This document shows positions 24,487 through 58,316 of a stretch of DNA of 64,000 bases, in pieces. A model generated the notes under the pieces. That model ran no database searches, was not told the origin of the DNA, and was given only the letters and a program-made list of their open reading frames with translations. Within the stretch, counting starts at the first letter, position 1, and the number at the start of each line of letters is the position of its first letter. Position numbers and translations under genes: made by a program. The stretch lies in contig PHSP01000003.1 of assembly GCA_002862125.1 (NCBI GenBank), positions 620,001 through 684,000 of the forward strand. Reading direction: 5' to 3'. This stretch comes from Methylobacter sp. KS41. GTDB lineage: Bacteria > Pseudomonadota > Gammaproteobacteria > Methylococcales > Methylomonadaceae.

Positions 24487-24488
24487 AC

Positions 24489-26756: not shown

Positions 26757-26794
26757 CTTTATAGACGTGTTGGCTACAAGCCCAGGAAAGATTG

Positions 26795-27595: not shown

Positions 27596-27597
27596 CC

Positions 27598-28101: not shown

Positions 28102-28104
28102 GCG

Positions 28105-29982: not shown

Positions 29983-30974
29983 AAGCGGCGCTTGAAAATA
30001 AACCATATCGATATGGTTTTTTTCAAGTCATGCGTCTTTTAGAATGCGCTTATAAAGACAAAGGCCGGTTTGGGCAATCGCAGCGCCCTGGCCTTGAACC
30101 GCCGGTAAGATTGGGGCAGGAAATCTCCCTGACTTTTGAAACCTCTACGCTAAACTCATTTACCCGCCGCAAAGCAGGGCTGATGCCCTTGCTTAAACAA
30201 CGTTTTTTAGGGTTATTCGGCGCCAATGGACCGATGCCCACTCATTTGACTGAATATATCCGCGAACGCATTCATTATCATCGAGATCACACCTTGTCCG
30301 GTTTTGCCGATATGTTTCATCACCGGATGATCTGCTTATTTTACCGGGCCTGGGCGAATGCCGAACCTGCCGTCAGTTTTGACAGGCCCGAAAGCGATCG
30401 TTTCTCTACTTATATTGGTTCTTTATCAGGCTTTGGCTCGGATGCTTTGCATGAACGCGATGCGATGCCTGACCTTGCCAAGCTTTATTACACAGGTTTT
30501 TTATCCCGCCAAAGCAAACCCGCGGAAAGCTTAAGGGCGTTGCTTGCCGACTATTTTCGCCTGAACATCGGTATTGAACAATTTGCCGGCGAATGGCTGA
30601 ATATTCAAAATGGAGATTTAACCCGCTTGGGCGAGACGCCAAGAACCGGGGAGTTGGGGTGTTCAGCGATATTGGGTTCCCGTGTTTGGGGTTGTCAGCA
30701 TAAATTCAGGGTTCGTTTTGGCCCCCTGAACTTGAACGAATACCTGAGCTTATTGCCGGATGGCTACAGAATAGACCAGCTGATTGCGATTATTAGAAAT
30801 TATATTGGCGATGAATTGAGCTGGGATGTGAATTTGGTGCTAAAAAAAGACCAGGCGCCAAGCGCCCGGTTAGGCGAGAGCACGCGGTTGGGCTGGACAT
30901 CGTGGCTAGGCGTCCGAGGGTCTGATAAAGATGCCGATGACCTTAGGCTGAACCCGTTCTGGGGGAAGCTTTAA
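29946..30974 (+). CDS. tssG: T6SS baseplate protein TssG
   Basis: TssG (ImpH/VasB), 342 residues, partner of TssF in the baseplate wedge. Family features include YRYGFFQVMRLLECAY, LGQEISLTFETSTL, GLFGANGPMPTHLTEYIRER and LSGFADMFHHRMICLFYRAW. The ATG lies inside the tssF coding region, just after GGAGAAATAAAG. It is followed by a 261-bp gap containing a palindromic repeat and then clpV. Confidence 0.96.
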   Translation: MADETRTAASSLEAALENKPYRYGFFQVMRLLECAYKDKGRFGQSQRPGLEPPVRLGQEISLTFETSTLNSFTRRKAGLMPLLKQRFLGLFGANGPMPTHLTEYIRERIHYHRDHTLSGFADMFHHRMICLFYRAWANAEPAVSFDRPESDRFSTYIGSLSGFGSDALHERDAMPDLAKLYYTGFLSRQSKPAESLRALLADYFRLNIGIEQFAGEWLNIQNGDLTRLGETPRTGELGCSAILGSRVWGCQHKFRVRFGPLNLNEYLSLLPDGYRIDQLIAIIRNYIGDELSWDVNLVLKKDQAPSARLGESTRLGWTSWLGVRGSDKDADDLRLNPFWGKL

Positions 30975-31084
30975 ATGTGCAGGGCGCGCTACGCGGACTT
31001 TGGGAAAAAATAATTTTGACTTGAAGAGATTGTTGAGCAAGGATGTATGCAACGGCGAGTGGTTTGCTGGGTGGAACTGTTCGT

Positions 31085-31125
31085 TGAGCGGAGTCGAAGC
31101 GAACAGCCGGCTTCGACTCCGCTCA
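31085..31125. repeat. REP-like extragenic palindrome between tssG and clpV
   Basis: TGAGCGGAGTCGAAG and CTTCGACTCCGCTCA form a perfect 15-bp inverted repeat around an 11-base centre. The TTCGACTCCGCTCAGC core is a common dispersed repeat in many proteobacterial genomes. No T-run follows. It could slow decay of upstream mRNA or mark a transposition-derived repeat. Confidence 0.7.
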
Positions 31126-31235
31126 GCCAGCCAACTGGTTAGTCAGCGAGCAAGCAAGCGTATCGTTAAGTCAACAATTTGACACCGGAAAATCGAGAAA
31201 CAATAAGCAGAATCCATAACAAAAAGGACCAAAAA

Positions 31236-33968
31236 ATGACCGAAATCAGCAGAGTCGCCTTATTTGGCAAACTTAACACCGTTTGTTACAAAGGCATAGA
31301 AGGCGCGACCGTATTTTGTAAAATGCGCGGCAATCCCTATGTCGAATTGGTGCACTGGCTGCACCAGATTTTGCAGTTGCAAGACTCCGACCTGCACAAA
31401 ATCATCCGGCAGTTTAATCTTGACCCTTCGCGGCTCGCCAAGGATTTTACCGATGCGCTGGACCGCTTGCCCCGAGGTTCCAGTTCCATCTCGGATTTAT
31501 CGGCGCATATTGAAGATGCCGTTGAGCGCGGCTGGGTGTTTGGCACGCTGATGTTCGGTGAATCGCAAGTGCGCTCCGGGCATTTAGTTGTGGGCATACT
31601 GAAAACCAAGGGCTTAAGCCACGCGCTAACCGGCATTTCCAAGGAATTCGATAAAATCAAAGTCGAAACCCTGACCGAGCGTTTTGACGAACTGCTTAGC
31701 GATTCGCCCGAACACGGCTTGATTGCCAGAGACGGTTTTCAGGCGGGCGGCGGCGCAGTTCCAGGCGAAGCCAGCGGCGCGATGGCCCCCGCGCAAATGG
31801 GCAAACAACAAGCCCTGAAACAGTTTACCGTGGATTTAACCGAACAGGCGCGGTCCGGCAAAATGGACCCTATCGTCGGACGCGATGAAGAAATCCGTCA
31901 AGTTATCGATATCTTAATGCGCCGCCGCCAGAACAATCCGATTCTTACCGGCGAGGCAGGGGTTGGTAAAACCGCCGTCGTTGAAGGTTTTGCGCAAAAA
32001 ATAGTCGCTGGCGATGTGCCGCCTTCTTTGCATGGCGTGAGTTTATTGACTCTTGATGTCGGCTTGTTACAGGCCGGCGCGAGCATGAAAGGCGAATTTG
32101 AAAACCGTCTGCGCCAAGTCATCGAAGAGGTCCAGTCTTCCGAAAAACCGATTATTTTATTTATCGATGAAGCTCATACGCTGGTTGGCGCCGGCGGCGC
32201 GGCAGGCACCGGCGATGCGGCAAATTTATTAAAACCGGCTTTAGCCCGCGGCACCTTGCGCACCGTTGCCGCCACCACCTTTGCCGAATATAAAAAACAC
32301 ATCGAAAAAGACCCCGCTTTAACACGTCGTTTTCAGGTTGTGCAAGTTAATGAGCCCAGCGAGGAAAAAGCCATCCTGATGATGCGCGGCGTCGCCTCGG
32401 TCATGGAAAAGCATCATCAAGTGCAAATCCTTGATGAAGCCCTGGAAGCGGCGGTGCGCTTATCACATCGTTATATTCCCGCGCGGCAGCTACCCGATAA
32501 ATCGGTGAGCCTGCTGGATACCGCTTCGGCTCGCGTGGCGATCAGTCAACATGCGGTGCCGGCTGAAGTCGATGATTGCCGGAAACGAATTAACGCGCTG
32601 AATACCGAGCTGGAAATCATTGCCCGTGAAAAAGCCGTCGGCGTGGACACTAAAGACAGGGAAACGCTCGCCGCTGAAAAACTGGCGAGCGAACAGGAGC
32701 GATTGACAGGCTTGGAACAACGCTGGAATGCCGAACGGGAACTGGTCAAAAGCATTCTTGATATACGTCAGCAACTACGCGCTTTGACCGGCAAAGTCGA
32801 AGGCACCGACAGCGACTTGGAAAAAGCGGCCGATGCCGCAGTGGCGGATGCGGAAACAGCAGCGGCCATTGATCCGGTTTCACGCGAGCAGTTGCTGGAA
32901 GACCTGAAAGCCCTGCAGGCCAAACTGCACGAACTGCAAGGCGAATCGCCGCTGATTTTGCCCAGCGTCGATGCGCAAGCAGTCGCTTCGGTGGTCGGCG
33001 ATTGGACAGGCATCCCGGTCGGGCGGATGGTTAAAAATGAAATAGACAACATCATTCACCTTGCCGACAACATCGAGCAACGCATTATCGGCCAACGGCA
33101 CGCGCTGGACATGATCGCCAAACGCGTGCAAACCTCCCGCGCCGGACTGGATAATCCGAATAAACCGGTCGGTGTGTTCATGCTGGCAGGCACTTCCGGC
33201 GTCGGTAAAACCGAAACCGCCCTGGCCTTGGCCGAAGCGCTGTACGGCGGCGAACAAAACATCATCACCATCAACATGAGCGAATATCAGGAGGCGCATA
33301 CCGTTTCCACGCTGAAAGGCGCGCCTCCCGGCTATGTCGGTTACGGCGAAGGCGGCGTGTTGACTGAAGCCGTGCGGCGCAGACCTTATTCAGTGGTGTT
33401 GCTCGATGAAGTCGAAAAAGCCCATCCCGATGTGCATGAGATTTTCTTTCAGGTATTTGATAAAGGCTGGATGGAAGACGGCGAGGGCCGGGTGATTGAT
33501 TTTAAAAATACGCTGATTTTGCTGACCACCAACGCGGGTACGGAGATGATCAGCAATCTTTGCAAAGACCCCGACTTAATGCCGGAACCGGAAGGCATCG
33601 CCAAGGCCCTGCGCGAGCCCTTGTTAAAAATTTTCCCGCCGGCTTTATTGGGCCGCTTAGTGGTCATTCCTTATTATCCGCTCAGCGATGAGATGATAGC
33701 GGCGATAGCGAAGCTGCAATTGGGACGGATTGCAAAACGGGTGATGGAAAGCCATAAAGTGCCGTTTAGTTATGATGACGCGGTGATCAGGCTGATTGCC
33801 AGCCGTTGTACCGAGTTGGAGAGCGGCGGCCGGATGATTGATGCGATTTTAACCAATACCTTGCTGCCCAGCATCAGCGCCGAGTTTTTAAACCGGATGA
33901 TGGAAGGCAAAAGCATTGAACGTGTGCATGTCAGCGTGACTGACGGGGAGTTTGTTTATGAGTTTTGA
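31236..33968 (+). CDS. clpV: T6SS AAA+ ATPase ClpV (TssH)
   Basis: ClpV, 910 residues, which disassembles contracted TssB-TssC sheaths. Order: N-terminal ClpN-like domain (about 1-160), first AAA+ domain with Walker A GEAGVGKT (near 239) and FIDEAHTLVGAGG, a middle coiled-coil (about 430-550), then a second AAA+ domain with GTSGVGKT (near 652) and VVLLDEVEKAHPDV. LFGKLNTVCYKGIEGA at the start matches TssH. I use ATG 31236, which follows AAAAAGGACC; an in-frame TTG 57 bases earlier has no ribosome-binding site. It follows the palindrome and probably has its own promoter. Confidence 0.97.
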   Translation: MTEISRVALFGKLNTVCYKGIEGATVFCKMRGNPYVELVHWLHQILQLQDSDLHKIIRQFNLDPSRLAKDFTDALDRLPRGSSSISDLSAHIEDAVERGWVFGTLMFGESQVRSGHLVVGILKTKGLSHALTGISKEFDKIKVETLTERFDELLSDSPEHGLIARDGFQAGGGAVPGEASGAMAPAQMGKQQALKQFTVDLTEQARSGKMDPIVGRDEEIRQVIDILMRRRQNNPILTGEAGVGKTAVVEGFAQKIVAGDVPPSLHGVSLLTLDVGLLQAGASMKGEFENRLRQVIEEVQSSEKPIILFIDEAHTLVGAGGAAGTGDAANLLKPALARGTLRTVAATTFAEYKKHIEKDPALTRRFQVVQVNEPSEEKAILMMRGVASVMEKHHQVQILDEALEAAVRLSHRYIPARQLPDKSVSLLDTASARVAISQHAVPAEVDDCRKRINALNTELEIIAREKAVGVDTKDRETLAAEKLASEQERLTGLEQRWNAERELVKSILDIRQQLRALTGKVEGTDSDLEKAADAAVADAETAAAIDPVSREQLLEDLKALQAKLHELQGESPLILPSVDAQAVASVVGDWTGIPVGRMVKNEIDNIIHLADNIEQRIIGQRHALDMIAKRVQTSRAGLDNPNKPVGVFMLAGTSGVGKTETALALAEALYGGEQNIITINMSEYQEAHTVSTLKGAPPGYVGYGEGGVLTEAVRRRPYSVVLLDEVEKAHPDVHEIFFQVFDKGWMEDGEGRVIDFKNTLILLTTNAGTEMISNLCKDPDLMPEPEGIAKALREPLLKIFPPALLGRLVVIPYYPLSDEMIAAIAKLQLGRIAKRVMESHKVPFSYDDAVIRLIASRCTELESGGRMIDAILTNTLLPSISAEFLNRMMEGKSIERVHVSVTDGEFVYEF

Positions 33969-44734: not shown

Positions 44735-44797
44735 ATGAAGCACATCCCCTCAGATTACCTGGAACAAAACCCGAGACGCCTGAATTGTGGCATCTGA
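44735..44797 (+). CDS. Conserved 20-codon leader ORF overlapping the first tpsA start
   Basis: An ATG-initiated ORF (MKHIPSD...NPRRLNCGI) whose last 11 bases overlap the GTG start of the exoprotein in another frame. The second tpsA has an ORF of the same length in the same place with shared residues MKHI, QNPR and CGI. It could be a coupled leader peptide. It could instead be the detached start of the extended signal peptide, joined by frameshifting or lost by mutation before duplication. No strong ribosome-binding site is seen. Confidence 0.35.
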   Translation: MKHIPSDYLEQNPRRLNCGI

Positions 44798-47700
44798 ATT
44801 TGCGAAACAAGGCAAAAAGCGCGGCTCGCTAAAACGTAAGGCCTTAATTTCCCCCTTCCTGGCGCTGTACGCATCGGCTAGTTTCGCCTTGCCCACCGGC
44901 AACGAACTGGTTGCAGGCCAGGCCAGCGTCACCACGCCGGCAGCCGGACAACTGCAAATTAACCAAAGCAGCCAGCAAGCCATAATCAACTGGCAGGGCT
45001 TTTCGATAGGCGCGCACGAAAGCGTCAACATTCAACAACCTAACGCCAGCGCAGTCCAGCTCGATCGCGTAATTGGCCAGGACGCCAGCAACATACAAGG
45101 CCAGCTTAACGCCAATGGCCAGGTATTTCTGATCAACCCCAACGGCGTGATTTTCAGCAAAACCGCCCAGGTTGACGTAGGCGGCCTGATTGCCAGCACC
45201 CATTCGATCAGCAATGCCGACTTTTTAAACGGCAAACTGCATTTCACGCAAGACAACGCGCAAGGCAGCGTGATCAATCAGGGACAAATTAACACGCCGA
45301 AAGGCGGCATAGTCGCCCTGATCGGCGAGCAAGTGCAAAACTCCGGCGCAATCAGCACGCCCGAAGGCGCAACCGTATTGGCGGCCGGTAAAACCATCGA
45401 TCTCGATATCCAGGGTAATGGCCTGGTGGAAGTCAAAATAAGCGAAGCGGCATACAATGCCCAAATCAACAACAACGGCATCATTCAAGCCGACGGCGGG
45501 CAAGTGATTTTGACCGCGCAAGCCGCGGGACAACTGTTAAACACCGTCATCAACAATCAAGGCGTCATCGAAGCGCACGGGCTGGCCGAAAAAAATGGCG
45601 CCATCGTCTTGTCGGGCGGCGACAATGGCATCGTCCAGGCCGGCGGCGTCCTGGATGTCAGCGGGCAGGCGGGCGCTCAGGCCGGCGGCAGCACCTTGCA
45701 GGGCGGAACCATCACGCTAAGCGGCGCGCAAATACAGGTAAGCGGCAACGCCGTACTCAATGCGTCGGGTGATGCCGGCGGTGGAACCATCGCCATTGGC
45801 GATAAGCAAAGCACCAGCCAAGCCAGCATTGAAGCTGGCGCGAGCCTGACCGCGCAAGCATTGGACCACGGCAAGGCCGGTTCGATAGCCGTGCTTGCCA
45901 ACATGGCTAACGGCGCCGTTAAGGTCGGCGGACAGCTGAATGCATCCGCGCCCAAACAAGGCGATGGCGGCACTATTGAAACCTCCGCCGCCCACGTGAA
46001 AATCGCCGATAGCGCGCAAATCAGCACCTTGGCGGCGAACGGCACAACCGGCGAGTGGACAATAGATCCCGCCGATTTTACTATCGCCGCTTCCGGCGGT
46101 GATATGACGGGGGCGGCTTTAAGCGCCAGTTTAACAAGCACAGGCGTGACAATATTCAGCACGAGCGGCGGCAGCGGCGTCAATGGAGACGTCAACGTCA
46201 ACGACGCGGTCAGCTGGTCGGCGAATCTGCTTACGCTAAATGCCCAGCGCAACATCAACATTAATGCCGTAATGACGGCGACGGGGAGCGCCTCTCTTGC
46301 AATGAACCCTTCAACCGCTAATGGCGTCAACGTCGCTTTAAGCGGCAGCGGTTTTACGGGGCGAGTAGACTTCAGTGGAACGGGCGCGTTGTCTATCTTC
46401 GGTAATACCTTTACAGTGATTAATAGCCTGGGCGCGCCGGGAAGCTCCACGGGCGCCGATTTACAAGGCATGAGTACTTCTGGCTTTAACTATTATGCGC
46501 TGGGGTCGAATATTGATGCTACATCTACAAATACATGGAACGGTGGCGCAGGTTTTGTGCCTGTTGGTAATTCGTCAACCCCGTTCGCCGGGTATTTTAA
46601 TGGTTTGGGCCACACTATTAGCGGCCTTTTTGTTAATAATGGGCTCGTCAATGGTGATGCGGGCCTGTTCGGCGCTATCAGCACTACAACTTCGATCAGC
46701 AATGTCGGTTTGCTGAACGCAAATATCACTGGGATAAATTATGCGGGTGCGCTGGTCGGAGAAAGCATTGCTGGTGGTACAAGCGCCATCAGCAACAGTT
46801 ATGCTACGGGCAGTGTTAATGCCACAGGCTTCAATGGCGGGGGTATTTTGGTATCAGCCGGTGGATTGATAGGACGGAGTTTTACTGATATCAGCAATAG
46901 CTACGCCAGTGTCAATGTTCTTTCGCCAAGCGCTACTTGGGTAGGCGGTTTAGTTGGGGAGCAGCAGCGGAATATCGATAACAGTTATGCGACAGGGAAT
47001 GTTAGCGGCCTAGCTGCGGGGGGGCTGGTCGGCTATCTCTGTAACTGTTCCGGCGCCTCCGGCATCAACAATAGCTATGCGACAGGCAACGTGAATAGCT
47101 CTGGCAACAACGGCGGCGGGCTGGTCGGATTTACCTACAGTGGCGCGATCACTAACAGTTATGCCACGGGCGCGGTCAGCGGGACCGGTGCTGGAGGTCT
47201 GCTTGGCGGCAGCATGAGCGGCGTCAGCATCGGCAACTCATTTTGGAATATCCAAACCAGTGGACAAGCAACAAGCAGTGGGGGCGGCACCGGACTGACC
47301 AGCGCCCAAATGATGCAACTTGGCTCCTTCGCTGGCTGGAACATCAGCGGCACAGGCGGCAGCGGAGCGGTTTGGCGCATTTATGAAGGTCATGCCGCGC
47401 CCTTGCTGACCAGCTTCATGACCGGTTTAACGCTCACGGATGTCTCCGTGGCTTACAACGGTTTCGTTCAAAGTGGCGCAAGCGTTGTCAACAGCGTGGC
47501 TGCCAGCGGATTAAACGTGGGGCTTTATAGCCCTTATTCCACCCAACAGGGTTACGATATTACGGGCGGAAATCTAACCATAACGCCAGCCACTTTGACT
47601 TACGCGGCGGCGTTAGCCTCTATACCCTATGGAACAAACAATCCGCTTTTATCCGGCGCCGTGAGCGGTTTTGTTGGTTCCGACACGCTCGCCAATGCCA

Positions 47701-50700
47701 CCACCGGCTCGGCCAGTTTTAGCACTTCCGCACTCAGCACCAGCAATGTAGGCAGTTACGCCATCACGGGTTCAGGATTGACCGCAAATAACGGCAACTA
47801 TACCTTTACGCAAGCGGCAAGCAATGCAACCGCATTAACCATCACGCCCGCCACTTTGACTTACGTGGCGGCTCTAACCTCAATACCCTATGGAACAAGC
47901 AATCCGATTTTGCCAGGGACCGTTACCGGTTTTGTTGGTTCCGACACCCTGGCCAGCGCCACCACCGGCTCGGCCGGCTTTAGCACTTCCGCACTCAGCA
48001 CCAGCAATGTAGGCAGTTACGCCATCACGGGTTCAGGACTGACCGCAAATAACGGCAACTATATCTTTACGCAAGCGGCAAGCAATGCAACAGCCCTGAG
48101 CATCACCCCGGCGCCATTGATCATCACCGCCAACTCATTCAGCAAAAACGATGATGGCCTGGCCTACACAGGCGGCAATGGCGTGACATACTCGGGCCTG
48201 GTTAACAACGAAACCAATAGCGTGCTTTCCGGCACGCTTACTTATGGCGGCGACAGTCAAGGCGCTATTAACACAGGAACTTATGAGATAATTCCCGGCG
48301 GTTTAAGTTCGGGCAATTACAACATTTCTTATCATAACGGCCTGCTCAGCATCGGCAGCGCAACAATTGCCCGCCTCCCTGTCCAGATTTACCCGCCAAT
48401 TTCGGTTCCCCCGGTTGTTCCTGTTTCCACGGCAAGTTCACCTGAAACATCATCTGCAAGTTCTTCCACGAATTCGACTGTTCATGATGTGACTAACAGT
48501 TTTACAGGCAGTAACATCTTGCCCGCGATGTATTCAGAACCGCTGAAAAAGCGAAAGATGATTCAGCCCACGCTTAAAATCAGGAACAGCGCCGGACGCA
48601 TCAAACAGATGCAGATGGATGCGAATAAGCAATATTTGTCCTTATTGCTTGATGATGGAGAGGTTCGCGTTTGGGATTTTCAAGCCGGTTTACAGCGGCA
48701 AATAACGACCGGCAATACCCGGCAAACCTTAACGGCCATCAGTCCGGTGAATGATAAAGGCGAATCCCTAGCCGTCGCCGGCACAACCGGCATAGGCACT
48801 TATGACCTGGTCGGTTCTATTCTCGACGACCAGTTGTCTATCAGCAGGCTTGATGCCCAACATTTTATTACCTCCAGGGATGGTAACTTGCTGCTGGTCA
48901 ATACGGGTGATAATGAGCTGAGTTTATGGGACAACAAGCAAGCCGGAAAACGCTGGGATTTGGCTTATCAGCGCGGCCATGTAAATGGCTTGGACATGAC
49001 GGATAACCAGCGCTACGGCGCGGTGCTGAGCCGGCAGCCGGACACCTATGTGCTGCCCAGCAACCTGCAATTACAGGCGGTAACCGATGCGGTAGACATT
49101 GTTGACCTTGGCAAGGGTCAAGTCATCAAATCCTTGCCCAACCTCGGTGAGCAAATCGTCTACATGCGGTTTAAAAATAACGATACCCTGCAATTAGGGC
49201 TTGCCAGCGGCGAGTTGCTGGACTGGCCCATTGCCACGGATAACCACCTTACGCCCGTCGCTAATTTCGCCGAGCCGGTAACAGCGGTTGATGCCGCCAA
49301 GGATACCTATGCCTATCTGCTTAATGACGGCACGGTGCGCGTTGGCAATGGTCAAGGCAAGATTCTGTTAAGTATTCAAAATGAGAAAAATCCTTTTAAG
49401 GACGCCATGTTGCTGGCGGGGAATAAAAAATTGCTGACGGTCATGGCCAATGGCGAACTGTCAGTCTGGGATGTCGCCACCGGGGTAAAAATGCTGCGCT
49501 TGTTTTCCACCAAACAAGGCTGGACGGCGATGGATGCTTTCGGCCGTTTCGACGGCTCCGAGGAAGCCCTGGAAAATTTCACCTGGGCAGCCAATGAAGA
49601 GGATATTCCATTAGACAGCTTTTCTGAAAACTACTATGAACCCGGCTTAGTCGCCAGTGTTTTACATAATCAGAATTACTTGAATAGTAATCCGATGATG
49701 GTGCAAAACGGCATTACTCTTCCCCCTAAAGTGGTATTGCAGATGGCCGGGCAACAAACTAATAGCGATAAGGCAGCCGTACAGCTGGATGTTTATGATC
49801 GCGGCGGCGGCATTGACAATATCCATATTTACCAGAATGGCAAATTGCTCAACAATAAAGACGTCATTGCAGCGCAACAAGTTTTGCAAAACGATAAAGC
49901 CGAACATCGCGTTTTGACGCTCAATGTTATGCCCAGCGCAGGTAAAAACATACTTAAAGTCATTGCCAGCAATGACATGGGTATCGAAAACGGCAGCACT
50001 GAATTAAGTTTCGACGGGACAACCAAAGTCGCCGCTTCAGCAATCCGTATGCTGACAATCGGCATTGATAAATACAGCGATAGCTCGTTAAATCTGGATT
50101 ATAGCGTTGCAGACGCCAATGCAATTGGACAAGCGTTAACCAAGAGTTCAAAAATCGCCTCCAGTAAAAGCCTTTATAACGAGAATGCGACCAAGCCAAA
50201 GATTTTGGCCGAACTAAAAGAAGTGAGCCGGGGCGACCAGCAGGATACCTTGATCATCTATTTTGCAGGACATGGCATTGCCTTGGGGAAAGAATGGTAT
50301 TTTTTGCCGTATGAAACCAAAATGCAGCCGAGCGTTGAGAAAATTGCCGCCGCAGGCATAACCGCCACCGAGTTACGCGAAATTTTTAAAGATACTAAAA
50401 TGCAGCATATTTTGGTCATGATTGACTCGTGTTATTCCGGAGCGGCTACGGATTCCTTTAACAAGCTGCAAATTGGACAACATTATGTCACCCGAAATTT
50501 GAGCCGTTCCCTGGGTATTACCATGATTACCTCGGCTGCAAAAGACAAGGAAGCCTATGAGTTAAAGAGTCTTGGTCATGGTTTATTTACCTATCTTATG
50601 GCCCAGGATATACAAAATAATAAAGCCAACCATTCCGCTCATGGCATTGCGGAAAACATCGTAAAAACCTTACCCGCCTTTTCTAAAAAAATGGTGGGGG

Positions 50701-50756
50701 CTTCACAAGAATCTGTTATTTATACCAAAGGCAATGATTTCATGTTGACGGACTGA
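44787..50756 (+). CDS. Giant two-partner-secretion exoprotein with WD40-like and caspase domains (copy 1)
   Basis: A 1989-residue TpsA. A basic extended signal peptide (1-34, ending SASFA) precedes a haemagglutinin-type TPS domain (about 35-280; FLINPNGVIFSKTAQVDVGG). Then come beta-helix sequence, GLUG-like repeats (about 650-820; NSYATG, GGLVG), two 87-residue MBG-like repeats plus a third partial, a Pro/Ser linker, a WD40-like propeller (about 1265-1580; GEVRVWDF, ELSVWDV), an Ig-like module (DRGGGIDNIHIYQNGK) and a caspase domain (about 1755-1989). The dyad is His1829 (YFAGHG) and Cys1882 (DSCYSG). It is probably exported by the TpsB encoded downstream. The GTG start is forced by a stop two codons upstream. 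About 1.39 kb of its 5' DNA matches copy 2. Confidence 0.92.
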   Translation: MASEFAKQGKKRGSLKRKALISPFLALYASASFALPTGNELVAGQASVTTPAAGQLQINQSSQQAIINWQGFSIGAHESVNIQQPNASAVQLDRVIGQDASNIQGQLNANGQVFLINPNGVIFSKTAQVDVGGLIASTHSISNADFLNGKLHFTQDNAQGSVINQGQINTPKGGIVALIGEQVQNSGAISTPEGATVLAAGKTIDLDIQGNGLVEVKISEAAYNAQINNNGIIQADGGQVILTAQAAGQLLNTVINNQGVIEAHGLAEKNGAIVLSGGDNGIVQAGGVLDVSGQAGAQAGGSTLQGGTITLSGAQIQVSGNAVLNASGDAGGGTIAIGDKQSTSQASIEAGASLTAQALDHGKAGSIAVLANMANGAVKVGGQLNASAPKQGDGGTIETSAAHVKIADSAQISTLAANGTTGEWTIDPADFTIAASGGDMTGAALSASLTSTGVTIFSTSGGSGVNGDVNVNDAVSWSANLLTLNAQRNININAVMTATGSASLAMNPSTANGVNVALSGSGFTGRVDFSGTGALSIFGNTFTVINSLGAPGSSTGADLQGMSTSGFNYYALGSNIDATSTNTWNGGAGFVPVGNSSTPFAGYFNGLGHTISGLFVNNGLVNGDAGLFGAISTTTSISNVGLLNANITGINYAGALVGESIAGGTSAISNSYATGSVNATGFNGGGILVSAGGLIGRSFTDISNSYASVNVLSPSATWVGGLVGEQQRNIDNSYATGNVSGLAAGGLVGYLCNCSGASGINNSYATGNVNSSGNNGGGLVGFTYSGAITNSYATGAVSGTGAGGLLGGSMSGVSIGNSFWNIQTSGQATSSGGGTGLTSAQMMQLGSFAGWNISGTGGSGAVWRIYEGHAAPLLTSFMTGLTLTDVSVAYNGFVQSGASVVNSVAASGLNVGLYSPYSTQQGYDITGGNLTITPATLTYAAALASIPYGTNNPLLSGAVSGFVGSDTLANATTGSASFSTSALSTSNVGSYAITGSGLTANNGNYTFTQAASNATALTITPATLTYVAALTSIPYGTSNPILPGTVTGFVGSDTLASATTGSAGFSTSALSTSNVGSYAITGSGLTANNGNYIFTQAASNATALSITPAPLIITANSFSKNDDGLAYTGGNGVTYSGLVNNETNSVLSGTLTYGGDSQGAINTGTYEIIPGGLSSGNYNISYHNGLLSIGSATIARLPVQIYPPISVPPVVPVSTASSPETSSASSSTNSTVHDVTNSFTGSNILPAMYSEPLKKRKMIQPTLKIRNSAGRIKQMQMDANKQYLSLLLDDGEVRVWDFQAGLQRQITTGNTRQTLTAISPVNDKGESLAVAGTTGIGTYDLVGSILDDQLSISRLDAQHFITSRDGNLLLVNTGDNELSLWDNKQAGKRWDLAYQRGHVNGLDMTDNQRYGAVLSRQPDTYVLPSNLQLQAVTDAVDIVDLGKGQVIKSLPNLGEQIVYMRFKNNDTLQLGLASGELLDWPIATDNHLTPVANFAEPVTAVDAAKDTYAYLLNDGTVRVGNGQGKILLSIQNEKNPFKDAMLLAGNKKLLTVMANGELSVWDVATGVKMLRLFSTKQGWTAMDAFGRFDGSEEALENFTWAANEEDIPLDSFSENYYEPGLVASVLHNQNYLNSNPMMVQNGITLPPKVVLQMAGQQTNSDKAAVQLDVYDRGGGIDNIHIYQNGKLLNNKDVIAAQQVLQNDKAEHRVLTLNVMPSAGKNILKVIASNDMGIENGSTELSFDGTTKVAASAIRMLTIGIDKYSDSSLNLDYSVADANAIGQALTKSSKIASSKSLYNENATKPKILAELKEVSRGDQQDTLIIYFAGHGIALGKEWYFLPYETKMQPSVEKIAAAGITATELREIFKDTKMQHILVMIDSCYSGAATDSFNKLQIGQHYVTRNLSRSLGITMITSAAKDKEAYELKSLGHGLFTYLMAQDIQNNKANHSAHGIAENIVKTLPAFSKKMVGASQESVIYTKGNDFMLTD
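44810..46198 (+). repeat. 1.39-kb near-perfect direct repeat, copy in the first tpsA
   Basis: From the codons after the divergent start to the first mismatch at 46199 I found no difference from 51161-52549 by eye. Translations are also identical in several frames on both strands. Downstream the two genes diverge quickly. This indicates recent gene conversion or recombination. Confidence 0.9.
47589..48110 (+). repeat. Tandem 261-bp repeat encoding MBG-like domains
   Basis: Two in-frame units of 261 bp (87 codons) start at 47589 and 47850, each opening GCCACTTTGACTTACG and containing a PYGT...GSDTL...SNVGSYAITGSGL pattern. They differ by scattered substitutions. The second tpsA has only one related domain, so copy number probably changes by slippage or recombination. 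Confidence 0.85.
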
Positions 50757-51085
50757 CATAGCCAGGGAAGCAAACAAAGCTAATGCACACGCCATCGCGG
50801 CCAGAATAACTTGTTCAATAACGGCAGAGGCGCTTGCAAACCTCCTGTCAGTCGCCTTCGGCCTTTATTGCCCTTCTGCCCGGTATTTTTTTTCGACGTG
50901 CAATAATCAGCATGTTAGAATCACGGGCAAGTCTTGTCTTACATGCCAATGAATAAGGATTTTCCATATTTATTGGCGGAAAAGATCACTTGCCCTGTTA
51001 GGAAATTTGCAAACCTAAAGCCATTCCGGATTAACCGTTCAGGTTAGTGCTTTTTAACCACAAAGATTCACATTGAGCCCAGTTT
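50757..51085. other. Intergenic region between the two tpsA genes with a nested palindrome
   Basis: No gene is seen. At 50925-50995 GGGCAAGT and ACTTGCCC enclose a second inverted repeat (GCCAATGAATA / TATTTATTGGC, one mismatch, 11-base loop), giving a cruciform-like element of 71 bp. The last 60 bases before the leader ORF (ACAAAGATTCACATTGAGCC) resemble the region before copy 1, so the promoter or leader was duplicated with the gene. Confidence 0.5.
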
Positions 51086-51148
51086 ATGAAGCACATTCTT
51101 CCAAATAATCCGGCACAAAACCCAAGGCATTTAGCTTGTGGCATCTGA
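51086..51148 (+). CDS. Conserved 20-codon leader ORF overlapping the second tpsA start
   Basis: An ATG-initiated ORF (MKHILPN...NPRHLACGI) placed exactly as before copy 1, 52 bases upstream of the GTG and overlapping it by 11 bases. The flanking DNA differs clearly from copy 1 in this stretch, yet length, ends and stop are preserved. Same alternatives: leader peptide, or first half of an extended signal peptide in a shifted frame. Confidence 0.35.
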   Translation: MKHILPNNPAQNPRHLACGI

Positions 51149-54100
51149 ATTTCCGAAGCTAGGCAAAAAGCGCGGCTCGCTAAAACGTAAGGCCTTAATT
51201 TCCCCCTTCCTGGCGCTGTACGCATCGGCTAGTTTCGCCTTGCCCACCGGCAACGAACTGGTTGCAGGCCAGGCCAGCGTCACCACGCCGGCAGCCGGAC
51301 AACTGCAAATTAACCAAAGCAGCCAGCAAGCCATAATCAACTGGCAGGGCTTTTCGATAGGCGCGCACGAAAGCGTCAACATTCAACAACCTAACGCCAG
51401 CGCAGTCCAGCTCGATCGCGTAATTGGCCAGGACGCCAGCAACATACAAGGCCAGCTTAACGCCAATGGCCAGGTATTTCTGATCAACCCCAACGGCGTG
51501 ATTTTCAGCAAAACCGCCCAGGTTGACGTAGGCGGCCTGATTGCCAGCACCCATTCGATCAGCAATGCCGACTTTTTAAACGGCAAACTGCATTTCACGC
51601 AAGACAACGCGCAAGGCAGCGTGATCAATCAGGGACAAATTAACACGCCGAAAGGCGGCATAGTCGCCCTGATCGGCGAGCAAGTGCAAAACTCCGGCGC
51701 AATCAGCACGCCCGAAGGCGCAACCGTATTGGCGGCCGGTAAAACCATCGATCTCGATATCCAGGGTAATGGCCTGGTGGAAGTCAAAATAAGCGAAGCG
51801 GCATACAATGCCCAAATCAACAACAACGGCATCATTCAAGCCGACGGCGGGCAAGTGATTTTGACCGCGCAAGCCGCGGGACAACTGTTAAACACCGTCA
51901 TCAACAATCAAGGCGTCATCGAAGCGCACGGGCTGGCCGAAAAAAATGGCGCCATCGTCTTGTCGGGCGGCGACAATGGCATCGTCCAGGCCGGCGGCGT
52001 CCTGGATGTCAGCGGGCAGGCGGGCGCTCAGGCCGGCGGCAGCACCTTGCAGGGCGGAACCATCACGCTAAGCGGCGCGCAAATACAGGTAAGCGGCAAC
52101 GCCGTACTCAATGCGTCGGGTGATGCCGGCGGTGGAACCATCGCCATTGGCGATAAGCAAAGCACCAGCCAAGCCAGCATTGAAGCTGGCGCGAGCCTGA
52201 CCGCGCAAGCATTGGACCACGGCAAGGCCGGTTCGATAGCCGTGCTTGCCAACATGGCTAACGGCGCCGTTAAGGTCGGCGGACAGCTGAATGCATCCGC
52301 GCCCAAACAAGGCGATGGCGGCACTATTGAAACCTCCGCCGCCCACGTGAAAATCGCCGATAGCGCGCAAATCAGCACCTTGGCGGCGAACGGCACAACC
52401 GGCGAGTGGACAATAGATCCCGCCGATTTTACTATCGCCGCTTCCGGCGGTGATATGACGGGGGCGGCTTTAAGCGCCAGTTTAACAAGCACAGGCGTGA
52501 CAATATTCAGCACGAGCGGCGGCAGCGGCGTCAATGGAGACGTCAACGTTAACGACGTGGTCAGCTGGTCGGCGAATCTGCTTACGTTAAATGCCCAGCG
52601 CAACATCAACATAAACGCCAATATGAATGGTTCTGGCACTGCCCAACTGGCTTTGCAATATGGTCAATCCGGCGGAACCGGCAACTATTTCATGAATAAC
52701 GGGGCTAAAGTCACACTACCCGCAGGTCTAAATTTTAGTACGCAAGAAGGCTCAAATGCTGTCAACCAGTATATGGTCATTACTAGCCTGGGCTCGCCAA
52801 ACAGCATCACTGCCACTGATTTACAGGGCATGAATGGCGATTTGACTTTGAGCTATGCGCTTGGCGGTGATATTAACGCCAGCGCTACCAGCGGTTGGAA
52901 CAGCGGTGCCGGTTTTACACCGATTGGCTCTTCTAATGGTTTCTCGGGTAACTTTGCTGGTTTGGGCCATACCATCACCGGCCTGACGATTAACAGTTCG
53001 TTGGGTCAGGTCGGATTATTTGGACAAACCAATTCCGGCAGTACAATTAGCAACCTGGGCTTGCTGGGAGGCAGTGTGATTGCTGCCAGCTGCGGTAGCT
53101 GTAGCTATGCCGCCGGTGCACTGGTGGGGGCAAACTACGGCACTATCAGCAACGCTTACTCTACAGGCAGTGTGGCAGGAAATTTGATTGATTCTATCTC
53201 CGTCGGTGGTCTGGTGGGGTTGAATTTTGGCGCTATCAGCAACGCTTATGCTACGGGTAATGTGAGTGGTGTTAATTATATCGGAGGATTGGTAGGAGAA
53301 AACTTTGGCGGTTCTATCAGCAACGCTTATGCTACGGGTAATGTGAGTGGTGTTAATTATGTTGGTGGATTGGTTGGTTTCAATAATTCTGGAGATTTTG
53401 CTAGCAGCATCAACAATACTTATGCTAGTGGCATGGTCACGGGTTCTAGCAATGCCGGTGGACTGGTGGGAGTTAATAATTTCAGTTCGGTTAGTAACAG
53501 CTTTTGGGATACCAATAAATCTGGAACATTAATTGGAATAGGTTCTAATACAGGTACTGTCACTGCCGTCACTGGTCTGGGCGCAAGCTTTAATGGCTCC
53601 AGTCCCGATGGGGTTTCTAGCTTGAGTACTGGCTCACCGTATTTATTGAGTAGTTATAGCATTTGGAATACGGCCGCCTCAAATACTATTGCTAACACCG
53701 GAGGCAGCACTGCCGTTTGGCGCATTTATGACGGTTATACCGCGCCTTTATTGCGCAGTTTTCTAATTCCTCTGACCGTCACCGCCAACGCCGACACCAG
53801 AACTTACAATGGCTTGGCTTATACTGGCGGCAACGGCGTTAGCTACACGGGCTCATCCAGCGGCATTTTCGGCAGTTTGAGTTATGGCGGCAGCAGTCAG
53901 GGGGCGATTAATCCGGGTTCCTACGTCATTTCGCCAACCGGGCTTTATTCTAATCAACAGGGTTATGATATTTCCTATGTGAATGCCGTGCTAACCATTA
54001 ATCCTCCGCCTCCGGCGCCTGTTATTCCTCCGCCGCCAGCGCCTATTATTCCTGTTAATCCTAATAATCCTGCTGTTATAGATAACATTGCGCCGCTGGC

Positions 54101-56567
54101 CGCATCGGTTACGTATCAGCCGCCACTGATTTTAACTCCGTATGTTCCGCCAGCCATTTCTGTAAACTCTGATTTGTCAGTCAAAGACACTACTGCTGAT
54201 TTCGCGGGGAATACCCCTCAGTATTGCGGCGACGAGAAAGCGAATACCAAAATGATTGACTGCCGGAAACGGCTAAAGAATAAACAATTAATTCTGCCGG
54301 TGCTCATGGTAAAAAACAGCGCGGGCCGGGTAAAATGCTTGCAGATCAGCGCCAATAAACAGTTTTTGTCGTTATTGCTGGAGGATGGGTCGGTTCGAAT
54401 TTGGGACTTTCAACGCGGTGAGCAACATCAGATTGTGACTCCGGATAAAAAGTCGGCATTAACTGATATCAGCGCCGTTGATAATAATGGCGATCTAATA
54501 TCAATTGCCAGTAAAGCCGGCATCGGCACGCAGGAAGTTATTATTCCGGCTTTCGATAACAAATTGATGATTAATGGGCCTGATATACGCCAATTTATGG
54601 CTTCAAACGATGGCAGCCTGTTATTGGTGAGCATGGGCTCTGATCAACTGAGTCTATGGGATAACAAGCAAAACAAAAGGATTTGGCAAGCGCCCTACAA
54701 GCGCGGCGTGGTGAATGGTCTGGCGCTGTCGGATAACAAGCGCTACGGCGCGGTGCTTAGCCGTCAACCCGGATCTTATGTGCTGGAGCCGGGCAATTTA
54801 CAATTAAAAAGTTTAACGGATGCGGTGGATATCGTTGACCTGAGCGCCGGCAAAGTCATCAAATCCCTGCCTAACGTGGGAGACCAAATTATCGCCATGC
54901 AGTTTACCGGCAATGACACCTTGCAATTAAAGCTGGCCAGCGGCGAGTTACTGAACTGGTCGATTGCCGAGGGCAGCCATAAAATAGCCGGCGCGTTCGG
55001 GGAACCGGTGATTGCTGTTGATGACAACAAACATGCTTATGCATACGTACTTCCGGACGGCACGGTGCGCGTCGGCAATGGCCAAGGCCATGTTCTGTTG
55101 AGCATTAAAAATGAAAAAAATCCTTTTAAGGATGCGATCCTGCTGGAGGGGGATAAAAAATTGCTGACCGTGATGAGCGATGGCGAGTTGTCGCTTTGGG
55201 ATGTCGCATCCGGCAAAAAAATGTTGCGTTTATTTTCCACGCAGCAAGGCTGGACGGTTATGGATGCTTTCGGCCGGTTTGACGGTTCAGAGGAGGCTAT
55301 GGATAATTTCAGCTGGATGGCGAATCAGGAAGATATTCCATTGGATAGTTTTTCTGAAAACTACTATGAGCCTGGCTTATTGAGCAATGTTCTGCAAAAT
55401 CAGGATTATTTAAATAGCAATCCATTCATGGTCAAAGAGGGCATTAGCCTGCCGCCTAAAGTGGATTTACAGCTAGCCGGGCAACAAGAAAAGGCCGGCA
55501 GCGTCGTGTTACAGCTGGATGTTTATGATCGAGGCGGCGGCATTGACCAAGTTAAAATTTACCAAAATGGAAAAATCCTCAACAATGCCGATGTCGTTGC
55601 GGCCCAGCAAACACAGCAAGATAAGGGAGGCGAACATCGCACATTGACGTTGAATGTTACGCCCAGCGCGGGCAAAAACACCGTTAAAGTCATTGCCAGC
55701 AATGACATGGGCATTGAAAACAGCAGCGCTGAGTTAAGTTTCGACGGCAAAACCAAAGCCTACGCCGCGTCCCTAAGACTGCTGACGATCGGTATTGATC
55801 GCTACAGCGACCCTAAGTTGGATCTGGATTACAGCGTTACCGATGCGAACTCGATTGGGCAAGCGATAAAAAATAGCTCAAAAATTGCCTCCGTAACAAG
55901 CTTGTATAACGAAAATGCAACCAAGCCCAAAATTTTGTCGGAACTCAAAGAATTAAGCCAAGGCGCGCAACAGGATGTGCTGGTTATTTACTTCGCCGGT
56001 CACGGCATGGCATTGGGGAAGGAATGGTATTTTCTACCCTATGAAACCACGATGCAGCCTACTCTTGAAAAAATTGCCGCTACCGGCATTACCGCCACGG
56101 AACTGAGCAACATTTTCAAAGATTCGAAAATACAGCACATCCTGTTAATGGTTGACTCGTGTTATTCAGGCGCGGGGTTGGACGCCTTTAGCAAATTACA
56201 AATCGGGCAACATTATTTCACGCGCAAGTTGAGCCGTTCTTTGGGAATTACCGTGATCACCGCCGCGGCAAAAGACCAGGAAGCCTATGAGTTAAAAAGT
56301 CTAGGACATGGTTTATTTACTTATCTGATGACTCAGGAACTGCAAGAAAAGAATGCCGCTCAGCCCGCTACCGCCCATGGCATTGCCGAAAGCATCGTCA
56401 AAACTCTGCCCGTTTTTTCTAAAAAAGTGCTCGGTTCCCGTCAAGAGCCTGTTGCCTATACCAAGGGCAATGATTTTACATTGACGGACGAATCCAAGGC
56501 GGCAAAGCAGGGTGACGCATTTGATAACAACACGCCCGCAATCGCGCCCGAAAAACTTGATCAATAA
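51138..56567 (+). CDS. Giant two-partner-secretion exoprotein with WD40-like and caspase domains (copy 2)
   Basis: An 1809-residue paralogue of the preceding gene. Signal peptide and TPS domain are the same apart from a few N-terminal residues. GLUG-like repeats (about 680-780; SNAYATGNVSGVNY, GGLVG) differ in number and sequence. There is one MBG-like domain (near 875-950), a proline-rich hinge, a WD40-like propeller (about 1060-1380; GSVRIWDF, ELSLWDV), an Ig-like module (DRGGGIDQVKIYQNGK) and a caspase domain with His1622 (YFAGHG) and Cys1675 (DSCYSG). A charged tail of about 25 residues follows the caspase. It lies 27 bp before tpsB, so it is co-transcribed with its likely transporter. 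GTG start, with an in-frame stop just upstream. Confidence 0.92.
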   Translation: MASEFPKLGKKRGSLKRKALISPFLALYASASFALPTGNELVAGQASVTTPAAGQLQINQSSQQAIINWQGFSIGAHESVNIQQPNASAVQLDRVIGQDASNIQGQLNANGQVFLINPNGVIFSKTAQVDVGGLIASTHSISNADFLNGKLHFTQDNAQGSVINQGQINTPKGGIVALIGEQVQNSGAISTPEGATVLAAGKTIDLDIQGNGLVEVKISEAAYNAQINNNGIIQADGGQVILTAQAAGQLLNTVINNQGVIEAHGLAEKNGAIVLSGGDNGIVQAGGVLDVSGQAGAQAGGSTLQGGTITLSGAQIQVSGNAVLNASGDAGGGTIAIGDKQSTSQASIEAGASLTAQALDHGKAGSIAVLANMANGAVKVGGQLNASAPKQGDGGTIETSAAHVKIADSAQISTLAANGTTGEWTIDPADFTIAASGGDMTGAALSASLTSTGVTIFSTSGGSGVNGDVNVNDVVSWSANLLTLNAQRNININANMNGSGTAQLALQYGQSGGTGNYFMNNGAKVTLPAGLNFSTQEGSNAVNQYMVITSLGSPNSITATDLQGMNGDLTLSYALGGDINASATSGWNSGAGFTPIGSSNGFSGNFAGLGHTITGLTINSSLGQVGLFGQTNSGSTISNLGLLGGSVIAASCGSCSYAAGALVGANYGTISNAYSTGSVAGNLIDSISVGGLVGLNFGAISNAYATGNVSGVNYIGGLVGENFGGSISNAYATGNVSGVNYVGGLVGFNNSGDFASSINNTYASGMVTGSSNAGGLVGVNNFSSVSNSFWDTNKSGTLIGIGSNTGTVTAVTGLGASFNGSSPDGVSSLSTGSPYLLSSYSIWNTAASNTIANTGGSTAVWRIYDGYTAPLLRSFLIPLTVTANADTRTYNGLAYTGGNGVSYTGSSSGIFGSLSYGGSSQGAINPGSYVISPTGLYSNQQGYDISYVNAVLTINPPPPAPVIPPPPAPIIPVNPNNPAVIDNIAPLAASVTYQPPLILTPYVPPAISVNSDLSVKDTTADFAGNTPQYCGDEKANTKMIDCRKRLKNKQLILPVLMVKNSAGRVKCLQISANKQFLSLLLEDGSVRIWDFQRGEQHQIVTPDKKSALTDISAVDNNGDLISIASKAGIGTQEVIIPAFDNKLMINGPDIRQFMASNDGSLLLVSMGSDQLSLWDNKQNKRIWQAPYKRGVVNGLALSDNKRYGAVLSRQPGSYVLEPGNLQLKSLTDAVDIVDLSAGKVIKSLPNVGDQIIAMQFTGNDTLQLKLASGELLNWSIAEGSHKIAGAFGEPVIAVDDNKHAYAYVLPDGTVRVGNGQGHVLLSIKNEKNPFKDAILLEGDKKLLTVMSDGELSLWDVASGKKMLRLFSTQQGWTVMDAFGRFDGSEEAMDNFSWMANQEDIPLDSFSENYYEPGLLSNVLQNQDYLNSNPFMVKEGISLPPKVDLQLAGQQEKAGSVVLQLDVYDRGGGIDQVKIYQNGKILNNADVVAAQQTQQDKGGEHRTLTLNVTPSAGKNTVKVIASNDMGIENSSAELSFDGKTKAYAASLRLLTIGIDRYSDPKLDLDYSVTDANSIGQAIKNSSKIASVTSLYNENATKPKILSELKELSQGAQQDVLVIYFAGHGMALGKEWYFLPYETTMQPTLEKIAATGITATELSNIFKDSKIQHILLMVDSCYSGAGLDAFSKLQIGQHYFTRKLSRSLGITVITAAAKDQEAYELKSLGHGLFTYLMTQELQEKNAAQPATAHGIAESIVKTLPVFSKKVLGSRQEPVAYTKGNDFTLTDESKAAKQGDAFDNNTPAIAPEKLDQ
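51161..52549 (+). repeat. 1.39-kb near-perfect direct repeat, copy in the second tpsA
   Basis: Partner of 44810-46198 at a constant offset of 6351 bp. After 52549 scattered changes begin (52550, 52558, 52587), and sequence similarity falls away beyond about 52615. Confidence 0.9.
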
Positions 56568-56594: not shown

Positions 56595-58316
56595 ATGAAC
56601 AAAAAACACCGTTTCCTTGTAATTCCCATTCTGCTTGGCAATTGGTCAGCAAACATTAACGCTGAACCCGTCATACCCAATGCGGGCTTACTCATGCGTG
56701 AAAGCAGCAAACTGCCAACGATGCCGGAAAAGCCTGCGGATACTGAGATAGAGCAGCCGCCTCTTAAAAAGCCCATGGCAGTGGATAGTAAACTGAGAGT
56801 AACAGTGCGGAACTTTATTTTTAGCGGAAATAGCCAAGTGCCAACCAGCGTCTTGCAGCCCTTGCTGAGCCAATACACCAACCGCAAACTTAATTTTGCC
56901 GAATTACAGCAGGCCGCCGCGGTAATTACCAAGTATTATCGAAACGCTGGATTTTTGGTTGCCTACGCCTATTTACCCGAGCAAACCCTGAAAAACGGGC
57001 AAGTAGAGTTGGCTGTTTTTGAAGGGCGGCTGGATAACCAGCACTTGGAAGGGGAAAATATCACCCTGCTTAACGACACCCGCATCAAAAAAAGCGTGTT
57101 GCAAAAATTTCTGGGCACTTTGCCTAAAGGCAGCGTGCTTACTGAAAGCAACATGAATCATCTGAGTTTGTTAGTCAATCAACTGCCGGGCATAAATGCC
57201 AAAGTGGTCCTAGCTCCCGGCAAGGAAACGGGAACTTCATCCCTGGCGCTTAAAGTCAAGGAAGCGCCGTTAATAAACGGTTACGCCTCCGCCGACAATT
57301 ATGGCCTGTATGCGACTGGCTATTACCGGTTTAGCGGTGGCGTGAGTATTAACGACCCGTTTGGTTTGGGCGATCAGCTTAATTTAAGGGCACAGACCAC
57401 GGACACGGGAGATACCGTTGCCGGATGGGCGGACTACAGCATGGCGATTAATGGTCATGGGACCCGGCTGGGCGTTAATTTCGCCCAATTGGATTACAGC
57501 CTGGGGCGTAATTTCACGCCCTTGCAGGCCAACGGTATCGCCCGCATCGCCGGCACGACGCTCATGCAGCCGCTGTTTCTTAAACGCAGCGCACAGCTGA
57601 CCGGCATAGCCCATTACGAACATCGCTGGATGCAGGATAATCTTGATTTATATGGAACTCATAATGATCGCGAACTTAATGTAATGAGTTTTTCTTTCGC
57701 TGGAAACTCAAGCGATACATGGCTGACAGAAATGGCGGTGAATCAAGCCTTTATCAATGTTTCGGCTGGACAGGTGGATTTCACCAATCGTCAGGCTTAT
57801 TTAGTTAATCAAAGCTCGGGCTTGGATACCAGCGGCGGCTATCATAAATTCAACTGGTTGATTAATCGCACGCAAAGCGTGTGGGGGCCTTTTAGCCTGT
57901 ACGCAAATTTTCAAGGGCAGGTTGCCAGTAAAAATCTCGACAATTCCGAGCGAATTTCGCTAGGCGGTCCCTATAACATTCGCGCCTATCCAGTCGGGGA
58001 GGGCAATGGCTCTGAAGGCTGGCAATTTAATGGAGAGGCGCGTTACCGGCTGCCCGCTGTTCCTTATCTGCCTGGTTATATGCAATTTATTGGCTTTATT
58101 GATACGGGCTTTTCCCGCATTAACGTCCAGCCATTGCCAGGCGACGCCCATAATTCTCAGCATTTAACAGGCTACGGTTTTGGCCTTAATTGGCTGGAAG
58201 CCAGGGGGTTCAGCTTGCGTCTCAGCCTTGCCTGGCGCGGCTCCAACAAACAACCGGCCGCTGACCCGAACACAAAAGGCCCTATGGGCTATTTTCAATT
58301 GAACAGGTACTTTTGA
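56595..58316 (+). CDS. TpsB outer-membrane transporter (ShlB/FhaC/HecB family)
   Basis: A 573-residue Omp85-superfamily protein. A signal peptide (1-23, ending INA) is followed by two POTRA domains (about 65-230; VTVRNFIFSGNSQVPTSVL, AAVITKYYRNAGFLVAYAYL, GQVELAVFEGRLD). The rest is a 16-strand barrel with the conserved L6 tip motif in SLGGPYNIRAYPVGEG, ending in aromatic YFQLNRYF. TpsB proteins bind the TPS domain of their partners in the periplasm and pass them across the outer membrane. It is the only transporter here and the two upstream exoproteins share one TPS domain sequence, so it likely serves both. Confidence 0.95.
   Translation: MNKKHRFLVIPILLGNWSANINAEPVIPNAGLLMRESSKLPTMPEKPADTEIEQPPLKKPMAVDSKLRVTVRNFIFSGNSQVPTSVLQPLLSQYTNRKLNFAELQQAAAVITKYYRNAGFLVAYAYLPEQTLKNGQVELAVFEGRLDNQHLEGENITLLNDTRIKKSVLQKFLGTLPKGSVLTESNMNHLSLLVNQLPGINAKVVLAPGKETGTSSLALKVKEAPLINGYASADNYGLYATGYYRFSGGVSINDPFGLGDQLNLRAQTTDTGDTVAGWADYSMAINGHGTRLGVNFAQLDYSLGRNFTPLQANGIARIAGTTLMQPLFLKRSAQLTGIAHYEHRWMQDNLDLYGTHNDRELNVMSFSFAGNSSDTWLTEMAVNQAFINVSAGQVDFTNRQAYLVNQSSGLDTSGGYHKFNWLINRTQSVWGPFSLYANFQGQVASKNLDNSERISLGGPYNIRAYPVGEGNGSEGWQFNGEARYRLPAVPYLPGYMQFIGFIDTGFSRINVQPLPGDAHNSQHLTGYGFGLNWLEARGFSLRLSLAWRGSNKQPAADPNTKGPMGYFQLNRYF

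Follow-up and report, generated by a model that had tools for sequence, protein, structure and literature searches.

Discussion of bacterial caspases has mostly treated them as proteases of cell death or defense that work inside the cell. The two genes considered here stand side by side in a 64,000-nucleotide stretch of Methylobacter sp. KS41 (contig PHSP01000003.1 of assembly GCA_002862125.1, positions 620,001 to 684,000; hereafter the window), and each encodes a giant protein with the secretion domain of two-partner secretion (TPS, type Vb) at one end and a caspase at the other. Their nearest described counterparts are of two kinds. The TpsA exoproteins FhaB, HMW1, CdrA, CdiA, and LepA share with the window pair a signal-like N-terminus, a TPS domain, long repeats, and an adjoining TpsB; unlike them, the pair bears a C-terminal WD40-caspase module. 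LepA is itself a TpsA that is a protease, and TpsA proteins can be matured by external proteases (PMC5422565); the word caspase is absent from the available portion of that review, as it is from the available portion of a study on the secretome of Methylococcus capsulatus, an organism with a TPS pair (PMC4257694). The C-terminal half of CdiA is kept in the periplasm until its receptor is bound (PMC7644211). Prokaryotic metacaspases and orthocaspases (Peptidase_C14), for their part, share with the pair the fold, the His/Cys dyad, and the WD40 partner, WD40 being the commonest metacaspase partner domain (10.9% of 671 sequences; PMC3501461), but the window caspases differ in being fused to a TPS filament. 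The same survey, from 2012, predicted 30 of the 671 sequences to be extracellular and could not place 529, and neither "haemagg" nor "hemaggluti" occurs in the available main text (PMC3501461). A polymorphic-toxin survey of the same year gives HINT as the protease in toxins of type V secretion systems (T5SS), lists no caspase among these, assigns Tox-Caspase to type II, type VI, and type VII secretion systems (T2SS, T6SS, T7SS) and the Photorhabdus virulence cassette (PVC), and proposes caspase-like domains as releasing peptidases of other toxins (PMC3482391).

Two further systems are relevant because the window pair ends a T6SS island. TasL of Vibrio fischeri is likewise a giant putative surface protein encoded within such an island, where it promotes contact; it differs in being a putative lipoprotein with fibronectin-type repeats, and the available text mentions neither a TPS domain nor a protease (PMC9040878). 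Many T6SS clusters also have a phosphorylation pathway, whose TagQRST sensor occurs only in Pseudomonas; in Serratia the predicted periplasmic protein RtkS is encoded just downstream of fha and pppA (PMC6082577). Among the matches listed, the open-access literature yielded no paper on a TPS-caspase fusion or on a link between caspases and T6SS, which agrees with the first-pass annotation of this DNA, whose author knew of no described system of this kind. As far as we have seen, then, each component is of a known kind, and the combination and its recurrence are new. The best overall explanation, to which we give a probability of roughly 0.4, is a regulated envelope caspase carried on a type Vb filament and tied to contact sensing and to the T6SS island.

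Architecture and evolution of the window pair

Copy 1 (44787..50756, 1989 aa) and copy 2 (51138..56567, 1809 aa) both begin with GTG and have the same architecture; these and, unless stated, the other window features given below apart from the Peptidase_C58 gene lie on the plus strand. Pfam places a TPS secretion domain (PF05860), as in TpsA exoproteins, at residues 44-288 of each (44916..45650, E 2.5e-35; 51267..52001, E 2.2e-35). A variable repeat region follows, with GLUG and three MBG_2 repeats in copy 1 (about residues 480-1200; 46224..48386) and GLUG in copy 2 (about residues 480-956; 52575..54005), and then a linker that is Pro/Ser-rich in copy 1 (48378..48560) and Pro-rich in copy 2 (54006..54287). 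The C-terminal half opens with a WD40 beta-propeller (about residues 1259-1600, 48561..49586; about residues 1051-1395, 54288..55322) and closes with a C14 caspase domain (50025..50747; 55755..56483); in copy 1, the gap between the two holds, with low confidence, a beta-rich segment (49587..50006) that may be Ig-like. The first-pass annotation had proposed this joining of a TPS front end to a WD40-caspase half from the letters alone, and Pfam bears it out for both copies. Structure comparison confirmed the caspase fold and the WD40 fold, the search with the whole C-terminal half covering the propeller only. The predicted dyads (His1829, codon 50271, and Cys1882, codon 50430, in copy 1; His1622, codon 56001, and Cys1675, codon 56160, in copy 2) prove strictly conserved in the proteins examined, being retained in 18/18 related fusions of methanotrophs and in 9/9 fusions of a second lineage. 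The window caspases match the NCBIfam model caspase_w_EACC1 below its cut-off, at 73.8 and 72.4 bits against 140. The same genome encodes a third C14 protein of 602 aa (L003, C1:603657-604229), with no signal-like N-terminus by eye.

The partner TpsB (56595..58316; POTRA_2 and ShlB by Pfam) is encoded directly after copy 2, 27 bases 3' of it. Judging from this transporter and the TPS-type front end, the pair would be secreted through TpsB. An extended signal-peptide region (ESPR), present in 10 of the 11 relatives whose N-terminus is available and intact in the relative L007, persists 5' of both window copies as a remnant whose frame is interrupted (44735..44786; 51086..51137). What is left is a plain signal-like N-terminus, recognized by eye, with a modest hydrophobic core and a hydropathy not above all eight cytosolic T6SS controls. 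Outside the window, the genome holds a third TPS protein with an adjoining TpsB (C1:414357-416221; open frame of 3429 aa). Within the TPS genes, long minus-strand frames at 45677-46471 and 52028-52639 are probably shadow open reading frames (ORFs), and a promoter and terminator scan found sites in numbers about equal to those in shuffled sequence.

The two copies have diverged very unevenly. Their 5' parts, including the TPS-coding part, are 98% identical over 1565 bases (44704-46268 against 51055-52619), the middle regions are divergent, and DNA identity between the C-terminal halves is 73%. Divergence at synonymous sites is 0.006 in the TPS part against 1.2 in the C-terminal half; the TPS part has therefore been homogenized recently, probably by gene conversion. 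Among other paralogue pairs, conversion is perhaps present in L037, and none was seen in L005. The C-terminal half is under purifying selection, with a dN/dS between the copies of about 0.19, falling to about 0.11 over the last 260 codons. This pattern bears on the possibility that the proteins resemble the polymorphic toxins of contact-dependent inhibition (CDI), with the caspase as toxin domain. A TPS domain joined to a C-terminal enzyme close to VgrG and PAAR genes would fit such a toxin, but a conserved C-terminal half, 69% identical between the copies, behind a variable middle is the reverse of the CDI arrangement; further, no ORF of at least 120 aa (the size examined) lies between the copies or between copy 2 and TpsB, leaving no obvious immunity gene, and HINT rather than caspase is the protease listed for T5SS toxins (PMC3482391). 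We regard a CDI-like toxin as very improbable, and as the main explanation it is rejected, because the C-terminus is the conserved part.

Methanotroph relatives, free-standing forms, and a second lineage

The search for further TPS-caspase fusions with neighboring tpsB genes, also suggested in the first-pass annotation, was productive. One scan of named genomes returned seven loci, all in Methylococcales, and a fusion-type match is present in 10 of 151 genomes of the window's family, the window included. With the record of L008 added, the methanotroph set comprises 18 proteins at 15 loci. A TPS match lies within the same frame in 14 of the 18, partially so in one (L040). As for the other four, the contig stops shortly within the TPS domain in L008 and in the first copy of L037; in L036 it stops further in, and no TPS is seen; and in L041 (2442-10164) a stop splits the gene into an upstream TPS frame and a caspase frame, kept separate here. 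TpsB was found in the fetched flank of 7/15 methanotroph loci and of 8/9 loci of the second lineage. The 18 methanotroph fusions form one clade (100/100) beside free-standing WD40-caspases of the same family, and within it the window pair, L007, and L008 group together (99/94 in a first tree, 98/94 in a second). The first tree left out L003 and L073 by choice and two rows with a score below 70; the free-standing relative L048 was not in the set.

These free-standing proteins bear on whether the module is exported. The first-pass annotation had taken caspase-fold relatives to be usually intracellular, but the close free-standing relatives point the other way: of nine places with E <1e-100, eight were examined (the ninth, a 376-aa frame on G116 C374, was left out), and 8/8 have signal-peptide-like N-termini. 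By hydropathy, six of the eight lie above all eight cytosolic T6SS controls, L046 (2.18) and L048 (1.87) being the two that do not. The catalytic Cys is, further, the sole Cys kept in 26/26 modules, every other column reaching at most 6, which would suit an oxidizing compartment. Taken together, the signal-like N-termini and this conservation suggest that the WD40-caspase module was probably exported before it joined a TPS filament. In five of the eight free-standing relatives, the fetched flank encodes a homologue of OmpA, a kinase, or PP2C. In two genomes, an autotransporter-barrel protein is encoded upstream of the WD40-caspase (L049:5221-6201; L050:6073-7041).

The same relatives weigh on two other explanations. 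The first, which develops a suggestion of the earlier annotation, is a surface protease against foreign targets, the caspase being displayed outside to cut proteins of neighbors, predators, or phages. It draws on the TPS export route, on the conserved dyad, and on the variable filament that precedes a constant enzyme. Against it stand the slow evolution of the caspase part (the dN/dS of about 0.11 noted above) and the existence of free-standing forms with signal-like N-termini, and the C-terminal half would further have to cross the outer membrane; we consider it distinctly unlikely. The second and closest rival is a self-processing adhesin, in which the caspase would cut its own Pro-rich linker and so release or remodel the filament, as SphB1 (in trans) does for FhaB and LapG for CdrA; in the T6SS setting, the filament would be a contact adhesin comparable to TasL. 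By our count, 14 of the 18 methanotroph proteins have their densest Pro stretch in the 150 residues that precede the propeller, and precedent is provided by the maturation of TpsA proteins by external proteases (PMC5422565), the promotion of contact by TasL (PMC9040878), and the proposal that caspase-like domains of other toxins act as releasing peptidases (PMC3482391). The linker sequence is not conserved, however, and the free-standing relatives with signal-like N-termini (all eight examined) have no filament to release, which makes processing in cis unlikely as the ancestral role. On balance, a self-processing adhesin seems rather unlikely.

A class search of 369 genomes recovered TPS-caspase fusions in two further genomes, G266 (two) and G472 (one), and a search of the family to which G472 belongs (f177; 100 genomes) raised the count there to seven, G472 included. 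The class search returned seven frames above 1200 aa outside the window, three of them TPS fusions; the remaining four had no TPS match, as judged by our own profile for L059 and by Pfam for L060-L062 (the best 25 families for L060 and L062). In the f177 search, whose fusion count rests mainly on frames above 1200 aa, seven of nine such frames are TPS fusions and L090 and L091 are not. A class search with the second-lineage profile gave full-profile matches only in G472 and G266 of the 369 genomes, and a phylum search (398 genomes, 134 with C14) gave no frame above 1088 aa among the matches listed and is uninformative for fusions. The caspase of these proteins belongs to a lineage other than the methanotroph one. 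No Pfam match to WD40 was found in the five second-lineage fusions scanned; the three f177 proteins among them carry FG-GAP and MBG_2 repeats, two of them also YDG. A single origin of all TPS-caspases was rejected in an approximately unbiased (AU) test (p 4.75e-66; 27 fusions against 22 others), for which seven long-branch or divergent rows were dropped and the group was chosen once the first tree had been seen; the program warns that long branches meet. These comparisons indicate that the fusion arose at least twice.

Linkage to type VI secretion

The TPS-caspase pair and TpsB stand at the end of a T6SS island, directly after the PAAR gene. The core of the island (13207..33968) encodes TagH(FHA), TssK, TssL-OmpA, TssM, TagF-PP2C, TssA, TssB, TssC, Hcp, ImpE, a gp25-type (TssE-like) protein, TssF, TssG, and a ClpV-type AAA ATPase. 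It is preceded by genes for an OmpA-domain protein (10461-11087) and a Ser/Thr kinase with DUF4384 (11199-12890) and followed by those for an FHA-SLT protein (37289-38995), a Tll0287/HAMP protein (39225-40118), a second Ser/Thr kinase (40084-41481), VgrG (41672-43699), a DUF6931 protein (43730-44314), and the PAAR protein (44353-44646; E 3.2e-27). Between the ClpV and FHA-SLT genes lies a 211-aa Peptidase_C58 protein (34885-35520) of the Yersinia/Haemophilus virulence surface antigen family. With the pair in this position, contact-dependent antagonism or the regulation of it is a better fit than a generic surface protease.

The association recurs elsewhere. In the nearest kin, L008 has TpsB followed by TagH-TssK-TssL, and L007 has a T6SS on the same contig. 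Five of the seven f177 fusions lie within 4 kb of TagH; TssM is found in four of these five flanks, and the fifth (L084) has TssM, TssL, and TssK; an OmpA, kinase, or FHA homologue is in the flank of 7/7. The f177 TPS-caspases stand near FHA and PP2C genes in a setting like that of RtkS, a likeness of gene position. In two other loci (L092:10361-18913; L093:7736-16246), a T6SS cluster is followed by individual genes for a TPR-CHAT protein, TpsB, a short TPS protein, and a WD40-caspase, and in L061 of G226 (617-5572) a single 1651-aa protein with a signal-like N-terminus contains an OmpA domain, a WD40 part, and a caspase. A Sel1-repeat caspase, lipoprotein-like by eye, is encoded immediately before TagH-TssK-TssL-TssM in L094 (6518-8788).

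A broader survey of caspase genes supports the association. The 68 family genomes with TssK were reduced by 11 with weak TssK-like matches (E >1e-60), and 5 of the remaining 57 had no C14. A caspase lies within 40 kb of TssK, start to start, in at least 19 of the 52 genomes left, against 2.25 expected, and none of 200,000 simulations reached 19; the C14 places are those among the matches listed, four of the genomes (G000, G023, G070, and G088, with G023 borderline at 39.4 kb) come from other searches, and without these four the count is 15/52. Within 10 kb, the count is at least 11/52, with 0.57 expected. Because the null model places genes at random and takes no account of kinship, a count by genus was added; it finds a caspase near TssK in at least 12 of 19 genera at 40 kb and at least 6 of 19 at 10 kb.

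It is also possible that the T6SS link is one of hitch-hiking, the TPS-caspases serving an unrelated role such as adhesion or stress response in islands that collect surface genes. Of the observations that weigh against an envelope caspase tied to contact sensing, the first two also lean this way. T6SS or phosphorylation homologues are in the fetched flank of only 3 of the 15 methanotroph loci (the window, L031, and L008; a ClpV-type match in L039 was taken as a generic Clp ATPase and not counted), leaving 12 without such a link, and three fusion-bearing genomes (G026, G073, and G266) have no TssK match; T6SS is therefore not required for the fusions. The T6SS-linked caspases are mostly free-standing frames that differ in length from the fusions (the majority at about 760-870 aa), and L094, the sole tree member of that class, falls elsewhere. 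No TpsB is in the fetched flank of 8/15 methanotroph loci, several of which end at contig ends, and the interrupted ESPR makes the expression of both window copies uncertain. The PADLOC "caspase" model, further, matches the relatives L047 (E 7.5e-20) and L058 (E 2.6e-7), so a defense role is possible. A defense system was nonetheless rejected for the window proteins, which lack a convincing PADLOC match: copy 1 has none, and copy 2 matches only Cas7g (E 0.0059, 14.6 bits, 60 residues), which we take as chance. Against hitch-hiking stand the enrichment of caspases near TssK in at least 12 of 19 genera and the similar neighborhood of the second, separate fusion lineage, and we judge it somewhat unlikely. 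The link between TPS-caspases and T6SS is recurrent, not obligatory.

A candidate envelope caspase in bacterial antagonism

The preferred reading of a regulated envelope caspase builds on the architecture, fold, conservation, purifying selection, and gene linkage observed here. The TPS domain and the highly variable repeat filament would be threaded through TpsB, while the conserved C-terminal half (WD40, beta-rich segment, and caspase) would fold outside the cytoplasm into a regulated, metacaspase-like protease, either periplasmic until contact or at the surface. The Pro-rich linker before the propeller would suit a boundary for retention in the periplasm, by analogy with CdiA. The T6SS island to which the window pair belongs also has a pathway of threonine phosphorylation (kinase/FHA/PP2C); the filament would make or sense contact, and contact, acting via the propeller, might turn the caspase on. 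The presumed substrate is an envelope target, either the linker of the filament itself or one of its possible periplasmic partners, for instance the DUF4384 kinase or the OmpA protein. Cleavage would then adjust adhesion or T6SS firing. The restriction of TagQRST to Pseudomonas and the use of a periplasmic protein by Serratia (PMC6082577) favor such an envelope protease tied to contact sensing.

A more general and speculative proposal, which we think unlikely, is that exported caspases are an overlooked input of T6SS and threonine phosphorylation at large: the filament would sense contact outside, the caspase on the envelope side would cut a periplasmic partner of the kinase, and the T6SS would fire. 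The OmpA protein is a candidate for that partner because an OmpA-WD40-caspase fusion exists in L061. At least two origins of the fusion would have served this end, with the unfused clusters of T6SS, CHAT, TpsB, TPS, and WD40/caspase genes as its separate-subunit form.

The position of the pair at the end of a contact-weapon cluster suggests that such caspases may act at the cell envelope in bacterial combat, and not only inside the cell. They are also a candidate input of the T6SS phosphorylation pathway in bacteria other than Pseudomonas, which lack TagQRST (PMC6082577). A conserved family of TPS-exported caspases that arose at least twice, with recurrent links to T6SS, kinase, and FHA genes, would place caspase proteolysis at the envelope in antagonism between bacteria.

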